In this document: one piece after another, positions 13,100 through 24,760 of the stretch
How the letters are laid out: every line of letters starts with the position of its first letter
How positions within the stretch are numbered: the first letter of the stretch is position 1
Assembly: GCF_017163705.1 (NCBI RefSeq)
Contig: NZ_JAFIWB010000030.1
Location: 1-60,495, forward strand
Direction: 5' to 3'
Length of the DNA: 60,495 nt
DNA from: Xanthomonas bonasiae
Lineage (GTDB): Bacteria; Pseudomonadota; Gammaproteobacteria; Xanthomonadales; Xanthomonadaceae
Position numbers and translations under genes: made by a program
Notes under the pieces: model-generated
Database searches by the model: none
What the model was told of the DNA's origin: nothing
What the model saw: only the letters and a program-made list of their open reading frames with translations

Positions 13100-13525
13100 A
13101 TGGAGATGAAAGCAAAGACCCTGGCATTGGTTGTCGTCGTCGCAGGAGCGGCCCTGTCCTTCCAGGCCCATGCGCAATCGTGCTGCCCCTCGGGTGGGCA
13201 CGGCGTGCCGGCGGCCACCGGGCTGGGTGAAAGCGCGCCCCGCGCGGCCAACCTCGCCACCGATTCGGCGTGGCGTATCTACGAGTTCCAACGCGACGGC
13301 GTGACCTATCTGCAGATCAACGACGCCACCGGCGTGGTACGGGCCGCGGTCGGGCGCATCAATGAGACCTTGTGGGTGCTTCCCATGGGCAAGGACGTGG
13401 CCCGCGTGTCGCTGTCGGCCACGCCTGCCGTCCCGGGGCGCGTGGTCTACCAGACCGGGGATTTCGTTGTCTGGTTGCGATCGGATGCGAAGGGCGATGC
13501 CTGGGTGGTCACTTCGCCAGATTGA
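13100..13525 (+). CDS. Small secreted protein of unknown function
   Basis: The 141-aa product has a classic signal peptide: Lys residues, a hydrophobic core (TLALVVVVAGAALSF) and cleavage after AHA. The mature part is about 115 residues with predicted beta strands (WRIYEFQRDGVTYLQIND, VVYQTGDFVVWLR), a compact beta-rich fold. AAGGAA lies upstream of the ATG; a second Met two codons later is an alternative. It follows the membrane coiled-coil gene in the same direction and may belong to the same transcript. Its 3' end overlaps the convergent MASE1 gene by 17 bp. No family recognised. Confidence 0.7.
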   Translation: MEMKAKTLALVVVVAGAALSFQAHAQSCCPSGGHGVPAATGLGESAPRAANLATDSAWRIYEFQRDGVTYLQINDATGVVRAAVGRINETLWVLPMGKDVARVSLSATPAVPGRVVYQTGDFVVWLRSDAKGDAWVVTSPD

Positions 13526-15023
13526 TCCCGACGCCTACGCGCTCGGAGACGAGAAAGCTCAAGGCCAACGCGTGGTGGCGCCGACAGGTGCCGCCATGCG
13601 TCTTGAGCCGAACCGACAGCTCCCGATCGGACTCAGGATGTTCACGCCGCACGGCGTTGAGCACGGACGCATCGGCGGTGATGCGCACGACGATCCCCTG
13701 CATGCCCCGCACCCGCCATACCCGGGCCTGGATCAGGTGGGTTCGCGCAACGGGCAACGTCTCCACGGCGTTGAGCACGCAGCGATAGGCCACCAGCTGC
13801 AGTCCCAGCGAAAGCTTGCAGGGATCGCCGCGCATCCGCCAGCGGAACTTCGTGTTGCACAGATTGGCGAAGCTAACCGAGCGCAACGTGTGGTACAGGC
13901 CATGCGTCTCGATGCCCAGCGGATAGAGCGCCGTGACGTACTCATCGAGCAGTTGCGCCTGGATAACCCCGGTGCGCGTCATCTGCATCGCCGCCGCGTG
14001 GTGCCCCTGGGAGCGCAGGTACTCCACGACGTCCCTGCGCATCCGATTGATCTGCACGGTGAGATCTGTGTAGTCGACCACCCGTTTGCGCAGGGTGCGC
14101 TCGGCAGACAGGTAGCCGGCCTGTGCGAATTCCAGTGCCTGCTCCCGCACCCGCCCGAAATCGCGCACTTGCCGGTAGGCGGCAGAGATGCGCGAGCCGA
14201 ACGCAAACAGGCCGGTGGCGGCGACCGCGAGCAGTATCTGTACGGCGAAAGCCTGTGGGTCGTGCACGCCGGCTTCGACGGTCTTGGGCAGCGACAGGGC
14301 CACCGCGACGTTGGCCAGTACCACGCCCAGTGCCGCACCGCGCCATCCATGGCGCAGGGTGAGCGCGATGGCGGGCACGACCAGCAGCACCCTCAGGAAC
14401 TGCCGCAGCACGGTGTCGCCGATGAGGGTGATAGCGACGAACAGAAGCGCCACCACCGCGACGGACGCCAGGCCTTCGTGCAGCAGATGGGACGGACGGC
14501 GCAAGGCTTCGTCGCGCCGCAGCCAAAGGAGCGCCGGCAGGATGAACATCAAGGTGCCCAAGTAGTCGCCCAGCCAGTACCTAATCAGGGTGTCGATCGG
14601 CGCCGGCTCCGATGGGCCGCCCAGCGCAGCATTGAGCGCCATGTTGCACAACGTGCTCCACAAGGCCGTCACCAGCGCGACCGGCAGCAGCCACTGGTCC
14701 TTGCGCATCAAATCGGGGATATGCAAGCGCGCCGTGACGGGAAGCAGCGAGACCGCGGGCATCAAGAGGAACGGGCTCAGGTAGGCCCAGGTGGTGCTGG
14801 CACCCCAGTTATCGACCCTCGGCACGCGCAGCACCAGCAGGGCCGCGACGTCACCCGCCAGCAACCAGGGCCATCGCCGCGCAGGCAGGAAGAGCAGGCT
14901 CGCAACGCGCAATCCAGCCGGCAGATACCACTGATCCACGGAGCATCGCCAAGCCAGCAGGAACGCGGCGCAGTAGCCCGCGCTCAGCAAGGCGCCTTTG
15001 GCAATGTCTTTTACAGCGGCCAT
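13509..15023 (-). CDS. MASE1-domain sensor-like membrane protein with a degenerate kinase-like tail
   Basis: The 504-aa protein has about eight membrane helices in its first about 290 residues, matching the MASE1 integral membrane sensor domain (WYLPAGLRVASLLFLPAR and LGDYLGTLMFILPALLWL are typical). A linker helix follows. The C-terminal part carries a weak histidine-kinase-like arrangement: LQLVAYRCVLNAVE resembles an N-box and GIVVRITADASVLN the strand of a G-box, but the phosphoacceptor His and the Gly-rich ATP motifs are not convincing. It may be a degenerate sensor that works through a partner. The first bases of this gene and its promoter are duplicated 1.5 kb upstream. Confidence 0.7.
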   Translation of the reverse strand: MAAVKDIAKGALLSAGYCAAFLLAWRCSVDQWYLPAGLRVASLLFLPARRWPWLLAGDVAALLVLRVPRVDNWGASTTWAYLSPFLLMPAVSLLPVTARLHIPDLMRKDQWLLPVALVTALWSTLCNMALNAALGGPSEPAPIDTLIRYWLGDYLGTLMFILPALLWLRRDEALRRPSHLLHEGLASVAVVALLFVAITLIGDTVLRQFLRVLLVVPAIALTLRHGWRGAALGVVLANVAVALSLPKTVEAGVHDPQAFAVQILLAVAATGLFAFGSRISAAYRQVRDFGRVREQALEFAQAGYLSAERTLRKRVVDYTDLTVQINRMRRDVVEYLRSQGHHAAAMQMTRTGVIQAQLLDEYVTALYPLGIETHGLYHTLRSVSFANLCNTKFRWRMRGDPCKLSLGLQLVAYRCVLNAVETLPVARTHLIQARVWRVRGMQGIVVRITADASVLNAVRREHPESDRELSVRLKTHGGTCRRHHALALSFLVSERVGVGINLAK

Positions 15024-15087
15024 TCGACCATCCGTGGCGTGTCAGAGTCACTGTACAAGCCGCGCGCGCTGCAGCAGTAGACATTTC
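15001..15087. repeat. Direct repeat copy 1 (start of the MASE1 gene plus upstream)
   Basis: About 87 bases covering the first codons and upstream region of the MASE1 gene recur in the same orientation at 16483-16570, with scattered mismatches and one small indel. The shared stretch includes a nearly perfect 37-base block. Confidence 0.75.
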
Positions 15088-15403: not shown

Positions 15404-16057
15404 CTATTCCGCCATGCCGGCTACGGACGCCAGGTGCGCACCATAGAACTCCATGTTGACGACGACGAACGTCGGTTCCTCGATGACTTGGTACGCGAAG
15501 ATCTCTTGGTGTGTTCCCGACCTGGGCAGCGCCTTGAACTTCAGGTCTGCCCATACCCGAAATCCTTCGACCAATGACGAGAATTCGGAGTCGGCCTCAG
15601 GACCGATGGGAATAAAAAGCGGCCAGACCGCCAAGTCGCCCAAGAGCTTTCGCCGATGGCCGTGGTGAAGGAAATAGAGTGCGCGCGCCATCTTTTCCAG
15701 GCACGTGCTCACGAGTTCGAACTCAAGCAGGAAGTCGCCGTCTATCGCCAGCACCTCGCCCTCCCACCGAAAACCGAAGCGGTGCAGATTCCTGCTGCGT
15801 TTCTGCGCTAGTCTGACGGCCCCCCTGGCCACGCTACGCCTGACCTCTTCCGGAGTATCCGAGGCGATCGCTCCAAGGAGGAACTTCAGGTACTCGTCCG
15901 CTTTCGAGGTGGCCTCGTTGTGCGCTTTGCACGAGGGCACTGTCATCAATTGGGACCAGTCGCCTTCTTTCGGGAACAGGCATTTCGGCGGAACATGTTC
16001 GCGTCCAGTAGCTGCAGCATCGCAGTGGTAGCAGGTGCCGGTCTCAAGACGTGCCAT
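15404..16057 (-). CDS. HNH-fold zinc-binding protein
   Basis: The 217-aa protein starts at an ATG preceded by AAGGAG. Its N-terminus has CYHC (Cys9, Cys12), the block REHVPPKCLFP (His21, Cys26) and then VPSCKAHN (Cys43, His46). This is the treble-clef/HNH-like arrangement seen in a family often annotated as hypothetical HNH endonucleases. The C-terminal about 170 residues are helical then beta-rich (EEPTFVVVNMEFYGAH) without a recognised motif. It is alone in its transcription unit within the island. Nuclease activity is plausible but some such proteins only bind nucleic acid. A longer in-frame start upstream has no ribosome site. Confidence 0.7.
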   Translation of the reverse strand: MARLETGTCYHCDAAATGREHVPPKCLFPKEGDWSQLMTVPSCKAHNEATSKADEYLKFLLGAIASDTPEEVRRSVARGAVRLAQKRSRNLHRFGFRWEGEVLAIDGDFLLEFELVSTCLEKMARALYFLHHGHRRKLLGDLAVWPLFIPIGPEADSEFSSLVEGFRVWADLKFKALPRSGTHQEIFAYQVIEEPTFVVVNMEFYGAHLASVAGMAE

Positions 16058-16891
16058 GTGGGCTCCTTGCAATTCTACAGATCGACATGCAGTGGAACTG
16101 AAACCAACTTTCGCGGCAGGATGGGCCGCCAATGCGGAGGCCGCCGCCCCACCCTGGCGCCGGCGCGGCAACTCGTTTTTTCAATAGCTTGTTGACGACG
16201 GATGCCATCGAGCCATTCCTCAGATCGGCTAAATCGACCAGCGCGATCTTGATCTGCAGGCCACCGCGCCGGTGCGGTCGGCGCCATCTGTCTACGAATC
16301 GAGACATAAGCCGACTTGGCGCCTGCCCGCTTTCACCTGGGGCCTGACCACGGAGGCTTCACCGCTCAAGACTCCAAAGGCCCAGGCCGAAATTTCGAGG
16401 AGCCCTTCTTGCCCTTGTGCAGATAGAACAGCACCGACTCAAGCACTGCAGAACCTCGATGGATCGACCGCTCCGGAGTACAGCAATGTCTTTTGCAGCG
16501 GCCATTCGACCATCCGTGGCTCATGTCAAAGCCGCTTTACAAGTAGTGCGCGCTACAGGAGTAGACCTTTGGTTTTTCCCTAGGCATCCCGGCGGTTTCT
16601 GGAAAATCTGCCGGTTCCGTCAATGTGCGCTGGAGGATCGCATGGGCCACGGTGGGGACAAGGAGCCGTCGCAGATCAACCGCGACGAACATCAATCACT
16701 GCCATCGACTTTTCCAACCTGGGCATGCCGGGATATTCAGTTAGAATTTGTAAAAGTTCAACTCAGTAGAGCCAGGTGGCATCAAGAATGAACACGCCGT
16801 GCGGACGCGGCAAAGATTTCGACCCGGAGGGATGCCGCCCTCAACCAGGCTCGGAAATTTCCGTTGGGACAATCCGGGTAAAGGTACGCGC
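16058..16891. other. Gene-poor island stretch with a duplicated segment
   Basis: About 830 bases with no convincing gene on either strand. The one interpretable item is the second copy of the MASE1 upstream segment (16483-16570). Short readings here lack ribosome sites and recognisable motifs. Confidence 0.5.
16483..16570. repeat. Direct repeat copy 2 (orphan MASE1 promoter/start)
   Basis: This segment matches 15001-15087. On the minus strand it includes an ATG and the same first seven codons apart from one substitution, after which the frame diverges at once. It is therefore a promoter/start remnant of a second, lost or rearranged copy. Confidence 0.7.
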
Positions 16892-17245: not shown

Positions 17246-18157
17246 CTAATGCTTGAAGCGATTTTGCCTGTGCCATTCCAGATAGGTTTGATGCGGTCGC
17301 AATTTTGAAATCCCAGGAAGGATAAGGCGACGATCTCTGACGATCAGTCTGTCGATTTCGCCAGGAACTCCGTGTGGCGATACAAGAATTTCATAGTCTG
17401 GCGAAATCGAGATCAGGCCACGATCGAATAGCCAATGGGCGGTTCCTGTGAGCGCGATGCCGTTACGCACTGTGTCTGGGCCGTTCGCTTCGACTGGGCA
17501 AATGTGCGCTGCCTGTACTTCTGGCCTGCCGCCCCCATTAATGAGCCGCAAGCCGGTAACCGAGCAGGTGTTCTCGTATGCATTCCTGACATGTCTACGA
17601 AATGCCACGTCTCGGAACGCTCTGTTTGTCAGTCTCTGAACAACACTTCTCTCTGCATAGAGGGGCACTTCGCCTTCACTGATCCTGTCCCCTGTCGAAT
17701 CGATCGCGGCGTCCTGAGGCTCCCACGCCTCGGTAGGCGTGGACATGCCTAATCTGATGATCGCATCGAATTCCTCGGGGCTGATGCTGCGTGCGGACCG
17801 TCCGAACGCCCCCTTGTTTGTTGATCCGTCATCCTTCTTCAGCATGGATTCGTAGTAATGACCGTTCTGGGAGAACGGCACCGCGCGATCAAATTCGATG
17901 AACTCTCCTAGGCGGGCATAGAAGTGCCCTTGGCGCATCTTGTCTGGATCGACGGAGAGCACGCGTGCGCAAGCAAAATACGCGCTGCGTCCGGTCGCGC
18001 TGTTCGCACCGGAAGTCCGCCTAGGTTCGTAGTAGATGATCAGATCGCCAATTGCTGCCTCGACTACACGAAGATAGGTTGAAGGAAAGTGGTAGCGCTC
18101 CTCGATCCTATCGTCGTATGCGGAACTTTCGGATGCAGTAAAAACAGCATGGGTCAT
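17246..18157 (-). CDS. HNH endonuclease (COG3440-like predicted restriction endonuclease)
   Basis: The 303-aa protein has two parts. The N-terminal about 130 residues (YLRVVEAAIGDLIIYYEPRR, ..YFACARVLSV) resemble the PUA/EVE-like reader segment found in predicted modification-dependent nucleases. The C-terminal part has the HNH core VQAAHICPVEANGPDTVRNG followed by LTGTAHWLFDRGLIS. Together these match the predicted restriction endonucleases of the COG3440 type, which may cut DNA carrying modified bases. GAGG lies 6 bases before the ATG at 18157; another ATG two codons upstream is possible. GC content is clearly below the surrounding genome, consistent with transfer. No methylase is adjacent, as expected for a modification-dependent enzyme. 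Confidence 0.82.
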   Translation of the reverse strand: MTHAVFTASESSAYDDRIEERYHFPSTYLRVVEAAIGDLIIYYEPRRTSGANSATGRSAYFACARVLSVDPDKMRQGHFYARLGEFIEFDRAVPFSQNGHYYESMLKKDDGSTNKGAFGRSARSISPEEFDAIIRLGMSTPTEAWEPQDAAIDSTGDRISEGEVPLYAERSVVQRLTNRAFRDVAFRRHVRNAYENTCSVTGLRLINGGGRPEVQAAHICPVEANGPDTVRNGIALTGTAHWLFDRGLISISPDYEILVSPHGVPGEIDRLIVRDRRLILPGISKLRPHQTYLEWHRQNRFKH

Positions 18158-18171
18158 GGTCATCCTCGCTA

Positions 18172-18196
18172 CACACCAGGTTACCAACTTGGTGTG
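18172..18196 (-). promoter_or_regulatory. Palindrome in the leader of the HNH gene
   Basis: CACACCA and TGGTGTG frame a second inner pair (GTT/AAC), giving 10 of 12 paired positions per arm. It lies just upstream of the ribosome site of the HNH gene, so it could be an operator or an mRNA hairpin that controls translation. Confidence 0.45.
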
Positions 18197-18502: not shown

Positions 18503-18712
18503 ATGCACACAGCACCATCCCCGCCGGCCCGCGCGCCGGGTTACCTTTTGCCGGCCGCCGCGCACGGTTTTCTTTGCGAGGTCGGCGACGCGCTGGGCCG
18601 GATGGCCACGCTGCCGTACAGCCTGCGCCACCTGTCCGACCGCATCAACGCCGCCCTGCACCAATGCACCGCACCGGCCTGGTCCAGCCACAACCGTCGG
18701 GAGGCGCTATGA
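18503..18712 (+). CDS. Small protein upstream of the SymE-like gene
   Basis: The 69-aa product follows a strong AAGGAGG ribosome site. It is helical in its second half (HGFLCEVGDALGRMATLPYS, then LRHLSDRINAALHQC) with no recognised family. Its stop overlaps the next start by 4 bp (ATGA), so translation is coupled to the SymE-like gene. It could be an antitoxin-like or regulatory partner; this is inferred only from the coupling. Confidence 0.65.
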   Translation: MHTAPSPPARAPGYLLPAAAHGFLCEVGDALGRMATLPYSLRHLSDRINAALHQCTAPAWSSHNRREAL

Positions 18713-19119
18713 GCCGCCGCCCCGCAGCCGACACGCCCACGGCCGCAGCGGCCCGCCCCTCGCGCCGCCGCGCACCGCGGGTGCAATGGGTCTGCGTGGA
18801 CCCGCCGCCCACGCCGGCGCCCACCGAGGAGGAGTTGCGCGCCGGGCTGCTCGAGGACATCAACGAGGCCACGCTCCGCCGCTGCCGCCCACGCGTCCCA
18901 CGCCAGCCCACCCACTGCACCGTCGGCGTCGATCACTATCCCAGCAAGCAACGCCACACCGGTGACCGCCGCGTCCCAGTCCTACGCCTGAGCGGCCTGT
19001 GGCTGGAACAACTGGGCTTTGCCATCGGCAGCAAGGTGCAGGTGACCGTCCGCGCTGGCGAGGTCGTGGTATCAGTGGTCGACGCGAATGCCGTAGATGG
19101 GCAACGCGATGATCCTTGA
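18709..19119 (+). CDS. SymE-family toxin-like protein
   Basis: The 136-aa protein has a Pro/Arg/Ala-rich N-terminal extension and a C-terminal domain VPVLRLSGLWLEQLGFAIGS followed by KVQVTVRAGEVVVSVV. That is the SymE signature, a swapped-hairpin AbrB-like fold. In E. coli SymE is an SOS-controlled type I toxin repressed by an antisense RNA and compacts nucleic acid. Related Xanthomonas genes often occur in islands. Here it is coupled to a 69-aa gene and preceded by two hairpins, so control by RNA structure is plausible. Whether this copy is toxic cannot be read from sequence. Confidence 0.78.
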   Translation: MSRRPAADTPTAAAARPSRRRAPRVQWVCVDPPPTPAPTEEELRAGLLEDINEATLRRCRPRVPRQPTHCTVGVDHYPSKQRHTGDRRVPVLRLSGLWLEQLGFAIGSKVQVTVRAGEVVVSVVDANAVDGQRDDP

Positions 19120-20097: not shown

Positions 20098-21303
20098 ATG
20101 GTCATGAAGTTCAACGGGAAGCCGTTCAAGGCCGATGACTTCCAGAAGGCGTTGCACAAGGCCGCCGCAAAGCTGGTGGACGACCACCTGCGCGAACGGG
20201 TGGCTTCTGTTCGCGATCCGGAAACCGGGCGGTTCGCCACCGTGATCGTCGACGGCGAGCACTTAGACGACATGAGTTTGCGCATCGAGGGGACACCTGC
20301 CGTCCTGGATCAAGTGCGCCAGGATCTTAACGTGGAGGCCGATGTGGAGGATAACGAACGCGACCAGACCGGCGCAGAAATTCCGCCGAAAGTCTTCCTA
20401 AGCTTCGGCTGGGAGGATCACGACCTGGCAAGACGAATTGCGGAAGCCTTGCAGCGAAATGGCATATCGACGTGGTGGTCGGAGTGGGAGATCATGATGG
20501 GCGATAGCCTGCGTCGCAAGATCGACCAGGGTATTGGCGACTGCACGCACTTCATCGTCCTGCTGACTCCTACATCGATCAGCCGGCCCTGGGTGCAGGA
20601 AGAGATGGATGCGGGCTTCGTCCAGAAGCTCGGCCGGGGCGCCAAGTTCATCGGCCTGCGCCATGGACTGGAGGCATCCCGGCTGCCGCCGCTGCTGGCC
20701 GGCTCGCTTTCGCCCGAGATAGACCGGGAGCTAACCCAAATCCAGCAGTTGATCAACGACATCCATGGCATCTCGCGAAAGCCTGCTTTAGGGCGAGCCC
20801 CTGCCCAGACTTTGCTGCCGAAGACCCGCTACACGTCGGCGGCGATGGCGATCGCCGAGTACTTCGTCAAGAAAAGCCACAACGGGGAGTTCGGCGACGT
20901 CAGCGACGACGAGGAGTGCATCGCACAACACACTTCGTTGTCCCGCGAAGACGTCACCGACGCGCTCTACGAACTGCGGCGCTGGCTCAAGATCGACTAC
21001 GGCACGGTGATTGTCCGGGATACGTTCTATGCCGAATTCGACCGCTACTGGAAGCCTTGGAACCCGGCCGAGGATGCACTTAGGCTCGCTGCGGATACCG
21101 TCAACGATGCCAGCTTTCCCAGGGCGCCCGATCAGATCGGCCAGCGCTACGGATGGGAGCCGCGGCGCCTAAACCCGGCCATGGCCTATCTCGAAGAGCG
21201 TGAGGCCGTGCAGTTGTCGAAAGCTCTTGCGACCAGCCCCTACATCTGCTTCGAGATTCGGCGCAACGACGCGACCAGGCGCTTCGTCCGCAGCCGCGTC
21301 TGA
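20098..21303 (+). CDS. TIR-domain protein with N-terminal accessory and C-terminal winged-helix-like regions
   Basis: The 401-aa protein starts at an ATG with GGAGGA upstream. Residues 1-95 form a small alpha/beta region (KFNGKPFKADDFQKAL, RDPETGRFATVIVDGE, SLRIEGTPAVLDQV). The TIR domain spans about 98-230: KVFLSFGWEDHDLARRIAEA, then WWSEWEIMMGDSL, FIVLLTPTSISRPWVQEEM. The acidic residues around WVQEEMDAGF (near 166) are candidates for the catalytic Glu of NAD-degrading TIRs. The C-terminal about 130 residues contain a winged-helix-like block (SAAMAIAEYFVKKS, SREDVTDALYELRRWLKID). Many bacterial TIR proteins are anti-phage effectors that destroy NAD or make signal nucleotides. It is followed in the same direction by an unusual nuclease-like protein, suggesting a two-gene defence module. 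Confidence 0.85.
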   Translation: MVMKFNGKPFKADDFQKALHKAAAKLVDDHLRERVASVRDPETGRFATVIVDGEHLDDMSLRIEGTPAVLDQVRQDLNVEADVEDNERDQTGAEIPPKVFLSFGWEDHDLARRIAEALQRNGISTWWSEWEIMMGDSLRRKIDQGIGDCTHFIVLLTPTSISRPWVQEEMDAGFVQKLGRGAKFIGLRHGLEASRLPPLLAGSLSPEIDRELTQIQQLINDIHGISRKPALGRAPAQTLLPKTRYTSAAMAIAEYFVKKSHNGEFGDVSDDEECIAQHTSLSREDVTDALYELRRWLKIDYGTVIVRDTFYAEFDRYWKPWNPAEDALRLAADTVNDASFPRAPDQIGQRYGWEPRRLNPAMAYLEEREAVQLSKALATSPYICFEIRRNDATRRFVRSRV

Positions 21304-21585
21304 AGCGACAGCATGCAGGAACTTATGGGCCTTTGCGCCGCCCCCGCAGGCGGCCGGGCTCCGGGTTTCGCGCGGCCAGCGACGCCTGGATCAAGAGCCG
21401 TTTTTTCCCGAAGGATTGCTGCGGAGCTCGAAAGTTCCACCAGCAACTTGCCGCGCTCCAGAACGTACGGGGAAGCGAATCCGGGGAGCGCGCACAACAA
21501 CGCCAACACCAGTCAAGTATCGTCCTGCACTGAAGTAAACCGACAATATCCAAATAATGATGTAGACGAACCGAACAAGGAGAAC
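21304..21585. other. Intergenic region between the TIR gene and the nuclease-like gene
   Basis: About 280 bases. An in-frame extension of the downstream gene runs through it but has no ribosome site near its start and low-complexity composition, so I treat it as non-coding. It may hold a separate promoter. Confidence 0.45.
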
Positions 21586-23910
21586 ATGGCCGACACCGTA
21601 CGAGTCAATCTGTGCTACCGGCCCTTGCGCATCGGCTGGGCGGTTCGCGCGGACGACCTGGAGGGGTTTCGAAGGGCGGTACGCTACTCCCACGTCCTCT
21701 GGGGTGGACGCTTCAATCCAATTCTGATCGTCGACAACGAGGAGGAAGCCCGGCAACAGGTCGAGCTATTCCGTCTGGATGTCGTTTGGCCGCTGGGCGA
21801 CAGCCTGGAAGTCCGAGAGTTCGCCGAGCGCTTTCCCCACCTGAAGCCCTCGTTCCACGGCGGCTCTATCTTCGTCAAACAAGCGCGGTGGCGAAACTTC
21901 TCGAGGGTGCTCGATATCTTCAACACCGCTGCGCATTGGCACAACAAGCCCGAGTGGACCCAGTTCAAGGATATGGGTCTGTGCAAGTACGAGTGGCAAG
22001 GCGACGATCCGCTGGCGGACGTGTTCTTGATGCAGTTCGGCAGGTATCCGGACGTTGAGGAAGTCGGCGTCGACTACGCAGCGATGGTCGAGGAACTGCT
22101 GGACCCGATCACGGTAGCGCTGCAGCAGGACGCGGCGATACCTGGCGATTTCCTGCGGCGCCCGAGCCTGTCATCGGTGTGTAGATTCGCGATTGGGCGT
22201 CACTACACGGTGCGCCCCGGCTGGGAAACGCCCGGCTTCTTTATCGGCGACGCAGGCGATCTTGAGGACCTCATCTGTTACTGGAACATCCGCGCCTGCG
22301 ACGTCCCCCTGTGGTTTCTCGACACCGCCCACCTTGATCGCTACGCAGGTCTGATACCGCAGATGGAGGCCATCATCCAGGAGATGGCGCAACACAGCAT
22401 GGACGCGGACGCGGGCCTGGGCGTTTGGTCACGCGGCGATGCCGCGCAAGTCGACCAACTGTTCGAGAACAGGCGGCTGATCGTGCACAGCGTCGGGGAG
22501 GGATTCTGGTCCGGAAGCGCGGTCGTACCACCGGTCATGCGCCTTGGAGAAGCGTCGACGCTGGGCGTCATCGGAAGCGAACGCGGCGTGCCACGCGTGA
22601 GCTTCGCGCTGACAGAGAAGCCCTACCACGGACACCCGCATTACATGCATCAGCACCTCGTTGCCTCTGTGTCGCTGATCGGCGGCCTCTTCGGCGATCA
22701 ACAGCACACGTTCCATGTTCCATACGTTCCGGAGCTCAATCATTTCTACGCCCGGACCATGCATTTCGAGCACGATAAGCTGCGCGTCGAGCCGGAGCAG
22801 GTCGGGCTCATCATCGATGCCGCCGATCACGATGCGTTTCTCAACGCAATGCCAGTCGCTGAACTGATCAGACGCATCTTCGCGTTGGCGGGTTACAACA
22901 GCACGCTGAGCAACAGCGGACGCATCGCCCGACAGCTGCTGACGCAACTGGGAGGCCTGCAGGGCGCGCGCGTATTCAAGATTCCTGGAGCCAGGGAGTT
23001 GTTGAGGTCCTTCGGCCCCCGGGCGACGTTCTCCAGGGAGGTTGCGCTTGCGACGATTTCGGGAAAGACCAGCGAGGAACTGAGGGGCACGTTCGGCGCG
23101 CACGTCGATCTCTTCCTCGGGCCACGCCCGATCGAGCAGAAGCTGACGCCTCCTCACGTCTTCGCGGCCATGGTGGACGCGGGACTGTTCAGGATCGGCG
23201 TCGACCTGGATTGCCCGCAATGCGGAATGAGGAGCTGGGTCGCGCTCGACGTACTCAAGCAGCAGATCAGCTGTGAACTGTGCGGTCACGACTATGACGC
23301 GACTGGCCAACTGTTGGCCAGCGAGTGGCGTTTCCGGCGCTCAGGCGTGCTGGGTGCGGAGCGCAACGCACAAGGGGCTATTCCCGTGGTGCTGACGCTG
23401 CAGCAGCTGGATGCAAACCTGGACCGGGCGTTCAGTTCCTGCGTCTACTCTCCCTCGATCGACCTGAAGCCCCGCAACGACCCGCAACATCCTGACTGCG
23501 AGGTCGACTTCGTGTGGGTGCAGATGAATACCTATCCGAAGCGCACCTCCGTCATCCTCGGCGAATGCAAGGACCGTGGCCGCATCGAACCGGATGAGTT
23601 CCGGCGCGACGTCGAAAATCTGCGCCGCATCGCCGATGCCTTCCCATCGGATCGATTCCAGACTTACGTGGCGTACATCAAGCTCGCGCCGTTCACGAAA
23701 GAGGAGATCGCGATCGCCAGCGTGTTGAACGACGAGCATCGACGCCGGGTGATTTTGCTCTCTGCCCGTGAACTGGAGCCCTACCACCTGTTCGAACGTG
23801 TCAAAGCCGAACATGGCATCGGCATTCGGGCACACTCATGCGAGGAACTGGCGCTGATCACCCACCAGCTCTACTTCACCGACGTTGCCGGCGATACGGT
23901 CGAGCCCTAG
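21586..23910 (+). CDS. Large protein with zinc ribbon and PD-(D/E)XK-like nuclease motif (putative defence partner of TIR protein)
   Basis: The ATG at 21586 follows AAGGAG, giving 774 aa. The N-terminal about 540 residues (opening VNLCYRPLRIGWAVRADDLE and including VLWGGRFNPILIVDN) match no family I can name. A four-Cys zinc ribbon follows: Cys543-x2-Cys546 and Cys563-x2-Cys566. The C-terminal part has acidic residues in CEVDFVW (Glu639, Asp641) and, after a strand, ILGECKDRG (Glu660, Lys662). This is the Asp...Glu-x-Lys order of PD-(D/E)XK nucleases. The gene lies 282 bp after the TIR gene and both are followed by a tRNA boundary. I infer a sensor-plus-nuclease protein working with the TIR effector; the N-terminal role is unknown. 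Confidence 0.7.
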   Translation: MADTVRVNLCYRPLRIGWAVRADDLEGFRRAVRYSHVLWGGRFNPILIVDNEEEARQQVELFRLDVVWPLGDSLEVREFAERFPHLKPSFHGGSIFVKQARWRNFSRVLDIFNTAAHWHNKPEWTQFKDMGLCKYEWQGDDPLADVFLMQFGRYPDVEEVGVDYAAMVEELLDPITVALQQDAAIPGDFLRRPSLSSVCRFAIGRHYTVRPGWETPGFFIGDAGDLEDLICYWNIRACDVPLWFLDTAHLDRYAGLIPQMEAIIQEMAQHSMDADAGLGVWSRGDAAQVDQLFENRRLIVHSVGEGFWSGSAVVPPVMRLGEASTLGVIGSERGVPRVSFALTEKPYHGHPHYMHQHLVASVSLIGGLFGDQQHTFHVPYVPELNHFYARTMHFEHDKLRVEPEQVGLIIDAADHDAFLNAMPVAELIRRIFALAGYNSTLSNSGRIARQLLTQLGGLQGARVFKIPGARELLRSFGPRATFSREVALATISGKTSEELRGTFGAHVDLFLGPRPIEQKLTPPHVFAAMVDAGLFRIGVDLDCPQCGMRSWVALDVLKQQISCELCGHDYDATGQLLASEWRFRRSGVLGAERNAQGAIPVVLTLQQLDANLDRAFSSCVYSPSIDLKPRNDPQHPDCEVDFVWVQMNTYPKRTSVILGECKDRGRIEPDEFRRDVENLRRIADAFPSDRFQTYVAYIKLAPFTKEEIAIASVLNDEHRRRVILLSARELEPYHLFERVKAEHGIGIRAHSCEELALITHQLYFTDVAGDTVEP

Positions 23911-24326
23911 CAGCTGCCCTTGCGTGCGTATCGCAGTTTCTTCGAAAGCCGCGGCACTGCCTTGGCGATGGTCGCAATCTGGAAAGCGCTAGCCGTATCC
24001 ATTCGGAAGATCGCCGGTCCATAGAGTCATTTCATAGCCTTCATGGTCAAGGATCCTCATTGTCCGAAGCTCTGGTGACTTCTAGAATGTGTGAGAGCTC
24101 GTGCAGCACCGCGATGGGCACCGCGCTCTCTCCAAGCCAAGTGACATCAGAACGCTTGCGTATATGCTCTAAGCCCTCAAGCCCCGCTATTTCAATGGCA
24201 CCGTATTCGCTGGCTTCGCCTCTCAGCCTGAAAGGAAGTAAGGCCGTACAAGAGTGGGGTCAGGCTCACTTCCAACGTCCGCTCATCTTGAAGAGCAGAC
24301 AACATGCAATCGCTTTTGCATGTTTG
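23911..24326. other. Gene-poor stretch at the island's tRNA end
   Basis: About 415 bases with no supported gene. It contains a REP/MITE-like motif (24249-24305) related to 19409-19476 and a short hairpin next to the tRNA. Confidence 0.5.
24249..24322. repeat. REP/MITE-like element related to 19409-19476, with terminal hairpin
   Basis: CAAGAGTGGGGTCAGGCTCA and the following AAGAGCAGACAA resemble the inner part of the 19409 element at roughly 70 percent by eye. A perfect 7-bp hairpin CATGCAA/TTGCATG (24303-24322) follows, immediately downstream of the tRNA on its own strand, and may also help end tRNA transcription. Confidence 0.45.
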
Positions 24327-24402
24327 TGGTGGGCCCACCAGGATTCGAACCTGGAACCAAAGGATTATGAGTCCTCTGCTCTAACCGTTGAGCTATAGGC
24401 CC
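24327..24402 (-). tRNA. tRNA-Ile (CAU anticodon, lysidine type)
   Basis: On the minus strand a complete 76-nt cloverleaf with encoded CCA is present. Acceptor arms GGGCCTA/TGGGCCC pair with one G-U, the D-arm region is TAGCTCAACGGTTAGAGC, the anticodon loop is CTCATAA and the T-arm has GGTTCGAATCC. The sequence matches the bacterial tRNA-Ile2 type in which the CAU anticodon is modified to read AUA rather than AUG. Its 3' end faces the island, the usual orientation for an integrase attachment site. No second copy of the tRNA end was seen in the window. Confidence 0.93.
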
Positions 24403-24760
24403 GGATGCGTCCGGAGCGGGCGGGCGATGCGTCGGCCGCCGGCTTGGCGCCTCTGGCGTGCATGCAGAGGAAGGCGCCGAGGCGGGCGTGAGTTTAGCGT
24501 CCAGGGAGGCGTCGTGTCTTCCTGGGCTGTCGGTGCGTGTGCAACCGCCGGCTTGCTTGCGTGTTGGCTACCTAGGGCAAATGGCAAGGCGGCCCTTGAT
24601 TGGGATGCCCCCGGCAATCCGCAATGGAAGAGCATCAGCTCTGATGGTGAGCCGGGAACGCCCGTCGGGACTGAAGTCCCTCCCACAACAGCCTGCTTTT
24701 CCACAACAGCGCCGCATCGACGGCCGATGCGACGCCGCTAGCCGCGGAAGCTCCCTCCCC
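24403..24760. other. Intergenic region between tRNA-Ile and glgB
   Basis: About 360 bases with no supported gene. It contains a REP-like unit (24663-24690) and otherwise nothing recognised. Confidence 0.5.
24663..24690. repeat. REP-like unit (GGGACTGAAGTCCC core)
   Basis: CGTCGGGACTGAAGTCCCTC carries a palindromic core and ends in CCACAACA. It resembles the dispersed Xanthomonas REP units of the type TGTGGGAGGGACTTCAGTCCC; here a single unit lies downstream of glgB. Confidence 0.6.

Follow-up and report, generated by a model that had tools for sequence, protein, structure and literature searches.

Two adjacent candidate single-gene defences in Xanthomonas bonasiae: a TIR protein and a solitary PD-(D/E)XK nuclease of an unnamed family

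The 60,495-nucleotide stretch analyzed here (hereafter the window) is positions 1 to 60,495 of contig NZ_JAFIWB010000030.1 of Xanthomonas bonasiae (assembly GCF_017163705.1), and it carries on its forward strand a gene for a 401-aa TIR protein (20098..21303) followed by a gene for a 774-aa protein (21586..23910). The original prediction, made from the letters of the window, joined these genes in one module and called it a candidate undescribed defence system. Part of this holds: the 774-aa protein belongs to an unnamed nuclease family with a mobile, defence-like distribution. The two-gene system does not. In the loci that we examined the 774-aa gene is best read as solitary, and the two neighbors are probably independent single-gene defence candidates, the 774-aa protein being a putative one-gene anti-phage nuclease.

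Co-occurrence separates the two genes. Neither the TIR-domain profile nor that of the full TIR protein, both of which picked up the TIR gene of the window immediately, had a match at E<=0.1 among the open reading frames (ORFs) of 44 loci harboring 774-aa relatives, covering 609 kb of flanking sequence (5 kb or more on both sides in 25 of these loci and on at least one side in 41). Two contigs of one genome (L074 and L075) are counted as two of the 44, and L010, L011 and L012, the same places as L017, L018 and L021, are counted once. In the other direction, 15 loci that carry TIR relatives gave no match to the 774-aa profile at E<=0.01. The relatives in L057-L060 and L077 are full-length or near-full-length; the rest are distant or partial, and L084 is in the set by a tblastn match alone, being absent from the profile matches. 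When 398 genomes of the order were searched for each family, apparently in one and the same draw, the 774-aa family was recovered in 8 genomes (E<=0.001) and the TIR family in 8 (E<=1e-20), and only the window's own genome is common to both lists. The original prediction had proposed a neighborhood survey and named homologues never occurring together as what would speak against a pair; no co-occurrence was found outside the window's own genome, and on these counts we reject the two-gene module as a conserved pairing.

No other partner recurs either. Among 442 neighboring ORFs (120 aa or longer and no more than 8 kb away, from 45 loci) no group is present in more than 3 loci. Three groups reach that number, by eye a GGDEF-like group, a kinase- or regulator-like group and one whose L047 ORF is annotated as an ATP-binding protein, and a nucleotidyltransferase-like group, also named by eye, is found in 2. 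Because ORFs were called mechanically, a short partner could be missed. An exception may be one branch of the nuclease family, represented by a distant 865-aa member that begins 9 bp downstream of a 1226-aa ORF, a possible partner without a Pfam match (L073:2530-8817).

Assignment of the 774-aa protein to the PD-(D/E)XK nuclease superfamily is supported by both its putative active-site residues and its predicted fold. Our reading of the secondary structure of the model sets the domain limits: an alpha/beta region at about 1-302, a beta-rich and then helical region at about 317-531, a zinc ribbon at 543-566 and the nuclease at about 598-764. We aligned the window protein with relatives from 22 of the 30 loci of a pattern scan described below (23 sequences), leaving out L030, L033, L036, L037, L038, L040, L041 and L043 as broken, at a contig end or partial. 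The four zinc-ribbon cysteines C543, C546, C563 and C566 (23212..23283, plus strand) and the nuclease motif E639-x-D641...E660-x-K662 (23500..23571, plus strand), both of which had been picked out by the original prediction, are identical in all 23. So are the N-terminal motifs R12-P13-x-R15, W39-G-G-x-F-N-P45 and D65 (21619..21780, plus strand), which take in R15, G40, G41, F43, N44 and P45, as well as G152, D228, W233, N234 and E729. In a wider set of 8 sequences, four of them at 19-21% identity, the four cysteines, D641, E660, K662, R12, P13, W39, D65, D228 and N234 are kept in 8 of 8; in this set and in a few scans of relatives and neighbors the minus-strand relatives L011, L014, L015 and L016 and the Dsr1 protein were compared without their first residue.

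A structure prediction, likewise proposed at the outset, gave a confident model when AlphaFold2 was run on the 23-sequence alignment (mean pLDDT 86.1, pTM 0.85). Foldseek against the PDB returned two matches at E<=0.001 for the full model, Cdn1 with cA4 (4.4e-6) and VC1899 (6.7e-6), followed by the weaker matches Card1, Can2, MspJI (probability 0.98), PaqCI and BspD6I; these nucleases, together with the conservation of D641, E660 and K662, bear out the nuclease-like C-terminus first proposed. Cdn1 chain 8z4i_B matches over 166 columns with probability 1.00. Several alignments of the Cdn1/VC1899/Card1/Can2 type span 512-662 columns, much longer than the nuclease part. Only part of the model can fit, since TM-scores on the query are low (0.24, 0.20) at an rmsd of 16-17. 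Foldseek output gives no aligned ranges, and we assign the nuclease-type matches to the C-terminal part because they are lost when residues 1-530 are modelled alone (pLDDT 85.4, pTM 0.78). That N-terminal part has a corrinoid-protein activator complex as its best PDB match (E 0.017, probability 0.18). Among viral predicted structures, the one fold match at E<=0.001 is to a Bacillus phage protein that is uncharacterised.

Sequence libraries agree that the family is unnamed, and the roughly 540 N-terminal residues that had been called unrecognised match no library family. The 774-aa protein has no Pfam, PADLOC or NCBIfam match at E<=5, none of the 23 aligned members matches NCBIfam at E<=0.01, and a PADLOC scan of six relatives gave no confident match (at best E=0.015). 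A sequence search of the PDB stayed at chance level (best E 0.051 for the single protein and 0.28 for the profile). Relatives are rare, and three of the other genomes on the order list, a list that includes the window's own genome, hold copies 51-61% identical over nearly full length. Across the phylum, 5 of 398 genomes (own included) match the family profile at E<=1e-8. A two-pattern scan of one genome per species, 84,980 species in all, gave 56 pattern matches that reduce to 30 loci, a lower bound since the scan used two short patterns. By their titles these loci belong to Gamma-, Beta-, Alpha- and Deltaproteobacteria, Acidobacteria, Omnitrophota, Methylacidiphilales and Poribacteria. With relatives at 42-61% identity in several phyla, the gene is no chance ORF. 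A copy 46% identical lies on a plasmid of Bradyrhizobium barranii; collections of plasmids and phages gave 2 plasmids and 0 phages for the window protein, and the distant member of L046 as query gave 1 plasmid, 0 phages and 0 viral contigs. Such a rare, sporadic and wide spread of related sequences is as expected of a horizontally moved gene.

Two viral contigs also carry a gene of this type (2 of 36 pattern matches), and by our own reading of gene order both are P2-like. In P2-like phages the stretch from gpA to the portal gene gpQ is described as a hotspot of anti-phage genes in PMC9122126. The copy in L071 lies beside the portal gene and terminase and resembles the cargo of this hotspot in directly adjoining the portal gene. 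The L070 copy, by contrast, occupies a gap between the spanin and baseplate genes, a different site, and has no PHROG. This position as phage cargo is the strongest indirect argument for a role in defence.

Known defence genes adjoin relatives of the 774-aa gene in several loci, and a defence or toxin-antitoxin neighbor was identified in 11 of the 44 loci. Neighboring ORFs were picked for scanning by eye, the remaining loci being unscanned, and the neighbors of L032-L035 were viewed in part. Dsr1 neighbors the gene in L018 and ApeA in L017. Restriction genes enclose or adjoin it in L019 (type I restriction) and L022 (a type III methylase and a ResIII protein), and an HsdM relative is found in L044. 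HmaB and HmaC occur in L037, HmaB/HmaA-like genes in L028 and AbiEii in L035. Pfam identifies SIR2_2 and a STAND-type protein in L071, for which no PADLOC family matched at E<=1e-20, and annotation alone identifies PrlF/YhaV with an abortive-infection protein in L047 and DUF4238, without a PADLOC match, in L096. Other scanned neighbors matched T5orf172 (L020) and AAA_13 (L029) in Pfam. Two different SIR2-domain genes adjoin a 774-aa relative (L018:12570-16388 and L071:4760-7255), perhaps by chance. An integrase-family ORF lies by a close member of the family (L017:3469-4095) and a similar ORF by a distant one (L072:11391-12083).

Taken together, these observations suggest a working scheme for the 774-aa protein, in which anti-phage activity, triggering, substrate and every domain role except that of the nuclease are what we infer. 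The N-terminal alpha/beta region, with its RPxR, WGGxFNP, D65 and D228...WN motifs, would sense some product of infection. The zinc ribbon might hold nucleic acid or the joint between sensor and nuclease, and the C-terminal PD-(D/E)XK domain (D641, E660, K662) would then cut nucleic acid, stopping the phage or the cell. The upstream TIR gene would be an independent defence of the TIR/SEFIR NADase kind that shares the same variable region by chance. More tentatively, and with rather less confidence than doubt, the relatives may be viewed as a new family of single-protein immune nucleases, with a sensor of about 300 N-terminal residues of a kind unseen in solved structures, with branches of about 760-914 aa in Proteobacteria, Acidobacteria, Omnitrophota and Poribacteria, and with a place among P2-like phage cargo.

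Several results weigh against a defensive, sensing nuclease. Residues 1-530 modelled alone matched nothing in the PDB at E<=0.001, and because this region has no structural match, sensing is proposed from architecture alone. The 11 loci with an identified defence or toxin-antitoxin neighbor are a minority, drawn from hand-picked ORFs with no background rate, and several other loci (L031, L040, L042) resemble ordinary chromosome by eye. A single scanned ORF in each of L017, L047 and L073 had no Pfam match, L013 gave chance-level matches only, and one ORF apiece in L018, L022, L046, L071 and L072 was without a PADLOC match. In the L071 phage contig, the gene on the far side of the nuclease gene was not identified as gpA.

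Among other explanations, the protein might be a type IV or solitary restriction enzyme, whose N-terminal and zinc-ribbon parts read modified or specific DNA that the nuclease then cuts, with no sensing or suicide step. The matches to MspJI, PaqCI and BspD6I, with which it shares the nuclease fold, and the restriction genes of L019, L022 and L044 point in this direction. However, unlike MspJI-type and other PD-(D/E)XK restriction enzymes, it has no recognised DNA-reading domain, residues 1-530 being without a DNA-recognition domain among the matches listed, and no methyltransferase is a constant neighbor in the 45 loci; we regard this explanation as unlikely, if worth keeping in mind. It is a little harder to credit a second-messenger nuclease of the Can2/Card1 type, in which a cyclic oligonucleotide from another source in the cell would bind to the N-terminal region and switch on the PD-(D/E)XK domain. 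According to PMC12825302, Cdn1 belongs to the Can2 family and joins an N-terminal CARF domain to a C-terminal PD-(D/E)xK nuclease. Can2, Card1 and Cdn1, which combine these domains as ancillary proteins of type III CRISPR systems, and VC1899 have the PD-(D/E)XK nuclease in common with our protein and are its best whole-model matches, several of them over very long alignments, and GGDEF-like and nucleotidyltransferase-like genes appear among its neighbors. Yet the 774-aa protein is far longer than these proteins (372-436 residues), with a zinc ribbon and a large middle region; CARF proteins are absent from the 50 matches listed, of 350, for residues 1-530 alone; and a GGDEF-like gene in 3 of 45 loci is no constant partner. 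GGDEF genes are common on chromosomes. The window's own genome has no Csm1_B domain, the one domain of the Cas10/cas families that was searched for and in that genome only. The very long model-based alignments with Cdn1 and VC1899 may reflect a remote CARF-like relation.

A role outside defence, as a nuclease for the upkeep or transfer of mobile elements or a DNA-repair enzyme travelling with them, would suit the sporadic occurrence of the gene, its presence on plasmids and in phage contigs, and its neighbors in L017 (an integrase-family ORF) and L072 (a similar ORF). But the family is bound to no single type of element or recurrent neighbor, and known defence genes adjoin its members in several loci, which makes this role quite improbable. 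That the TIR and 774-aa proteins cooperate as one system would suit two adjacent genes on the same strand, 282 bp apart; set against 0 of 44 nuclease loci with a TIR relative, 0 of 15 TIR loci with this nuclease and a single shared genome, it can hardly be maintained.

The TIR gene is best read, from its sequence matches, as a separate single-gene TIR/SEFIR-like defence candidate, predicted to be of the NADase kind. Its product has a small N-terminal domain, a TIR core at about 98-230, as first proposed (Pfam TIR_2 at residues 99-198, E=8.6e-22), and a C-terminal region that is kept in relatives. Four aligned relatives are 34-50% identical to it, and W165 and E169 are identical in 5 of 5 sequences. 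The conserved glutamate expected near residue 166 is thus real, but it is E169 of a W-x-x-x-E stretch beginning at W165, residue 166 being a valine; we take E169 to be the catalytic glutamate, as in TIR NADases generally. The NAD+ hydrolase AbTIR is among its sequence matches in the PDB. Through its TIR part the protein matches PADLOC models of PDC-S66 (4e-20), ThsB (best 6.8e-10), SAVED_TIR (4e-8) and bSEFIR (7.4e-7). PDC-S66 and bSEFIR, presumably single-gene candidates judging from their PADLOC names, are in this respect its nearest likenesses, although the PDC-S66 match spans the TIR part only and the window protein differs from both in having a TIR core by Pfam. The likeness to Thoeris is confined to the TIR core, where the ThsB models match, and the adjacent 774-aa protein, the sole ThsA candidate checked, has no PADLOC match. 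In viral contig L077 a TIR relative adjoins a CBASS-type cyclase and a phospholipase (L077:3995-7197), and its residues 86-368 align to bSEFIR (E=1.4e-12).

In kind, a PD-(D/E)XK nuclease is ordinary. According to PMC13092281 (DefensePredictor), no other domain is as common among predicted defence proteins that are uncharacterised, and 13 further systems with PD-(D/E)XK domains were validated. Our literature search recognised no paper describing the 774-aa family, which may have been described under another name, and the family is new as far as the libraries and that search extend, the 13 systems of PMC13092281 standing outside the comparison. Should it prove active, the family would supply a nuclease encoded by a single gene, its sensor region having no match. 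Many discovery screens rely on recurring gene neighbors, and a solitary gene with no Pfam, NCBIfam or PADLOC model slips past screens of that kind. Conversely, a TIR gene beside a nuclease gene in one island is by itself no evidence of a system.

Both ORFs are complete, lie where the original prediction placed them with the sizes it gave, and are separated by 282 bp without overlap. A GGAGGA ribosome-binding site lies upstream of the TIR start at 20098, which matches the starts of 2 of the 4 aligned relatives, the other 2 being shorter at the N-terminus. AAGGAG precedes the nuclease start at 21586, where the closest relatives also start; a longer in-frame start at 21313 (865 aa) was ruled out on the position of the start in relatives. 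A simple consensus scan, which says little for this organism, found no promoter or terminator in the 282-bp gap.

Synteny with congeners starts at the 3' end of a tRNA-Met gene (24327..24402, minus strand; located by ARAGORN), which forms the right border of a variable region, and the two genes therefore occupy the end of this region nearest the tRNA. Synteny begins at 24327 in G195, 24326 in G190 and 24295 in G794. We bounded the island on its right side only and found no left border. Ends of tRNA genes are a usual landing place for such genes. In G794 a second copy of the tRNA-Met region (L095:6907-7162, matching window 24248-24502) lies about 3 kb from the first and looks as if left by the end of an island. 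The variable region also holds genes for an HNH_2 endonuclease (17246-18187; PADLOC HNH, 2.4e-11) and a SymE toxin (18574-19119). Farther left, a 38-bp direct repeat (15001-15038 and 16483-16520, 97% alike), which has no further copies in the genome when up to 2 mismatches are allowed, flanks about 1.5 kb that contains a Cys-rich ORF (15404-16057, minus strand) without a Pfam match. The 5' end of a 504-aa gene (13509-15023) is formed by the first copy, as though insertion of a small element had left the start of this gene in place.

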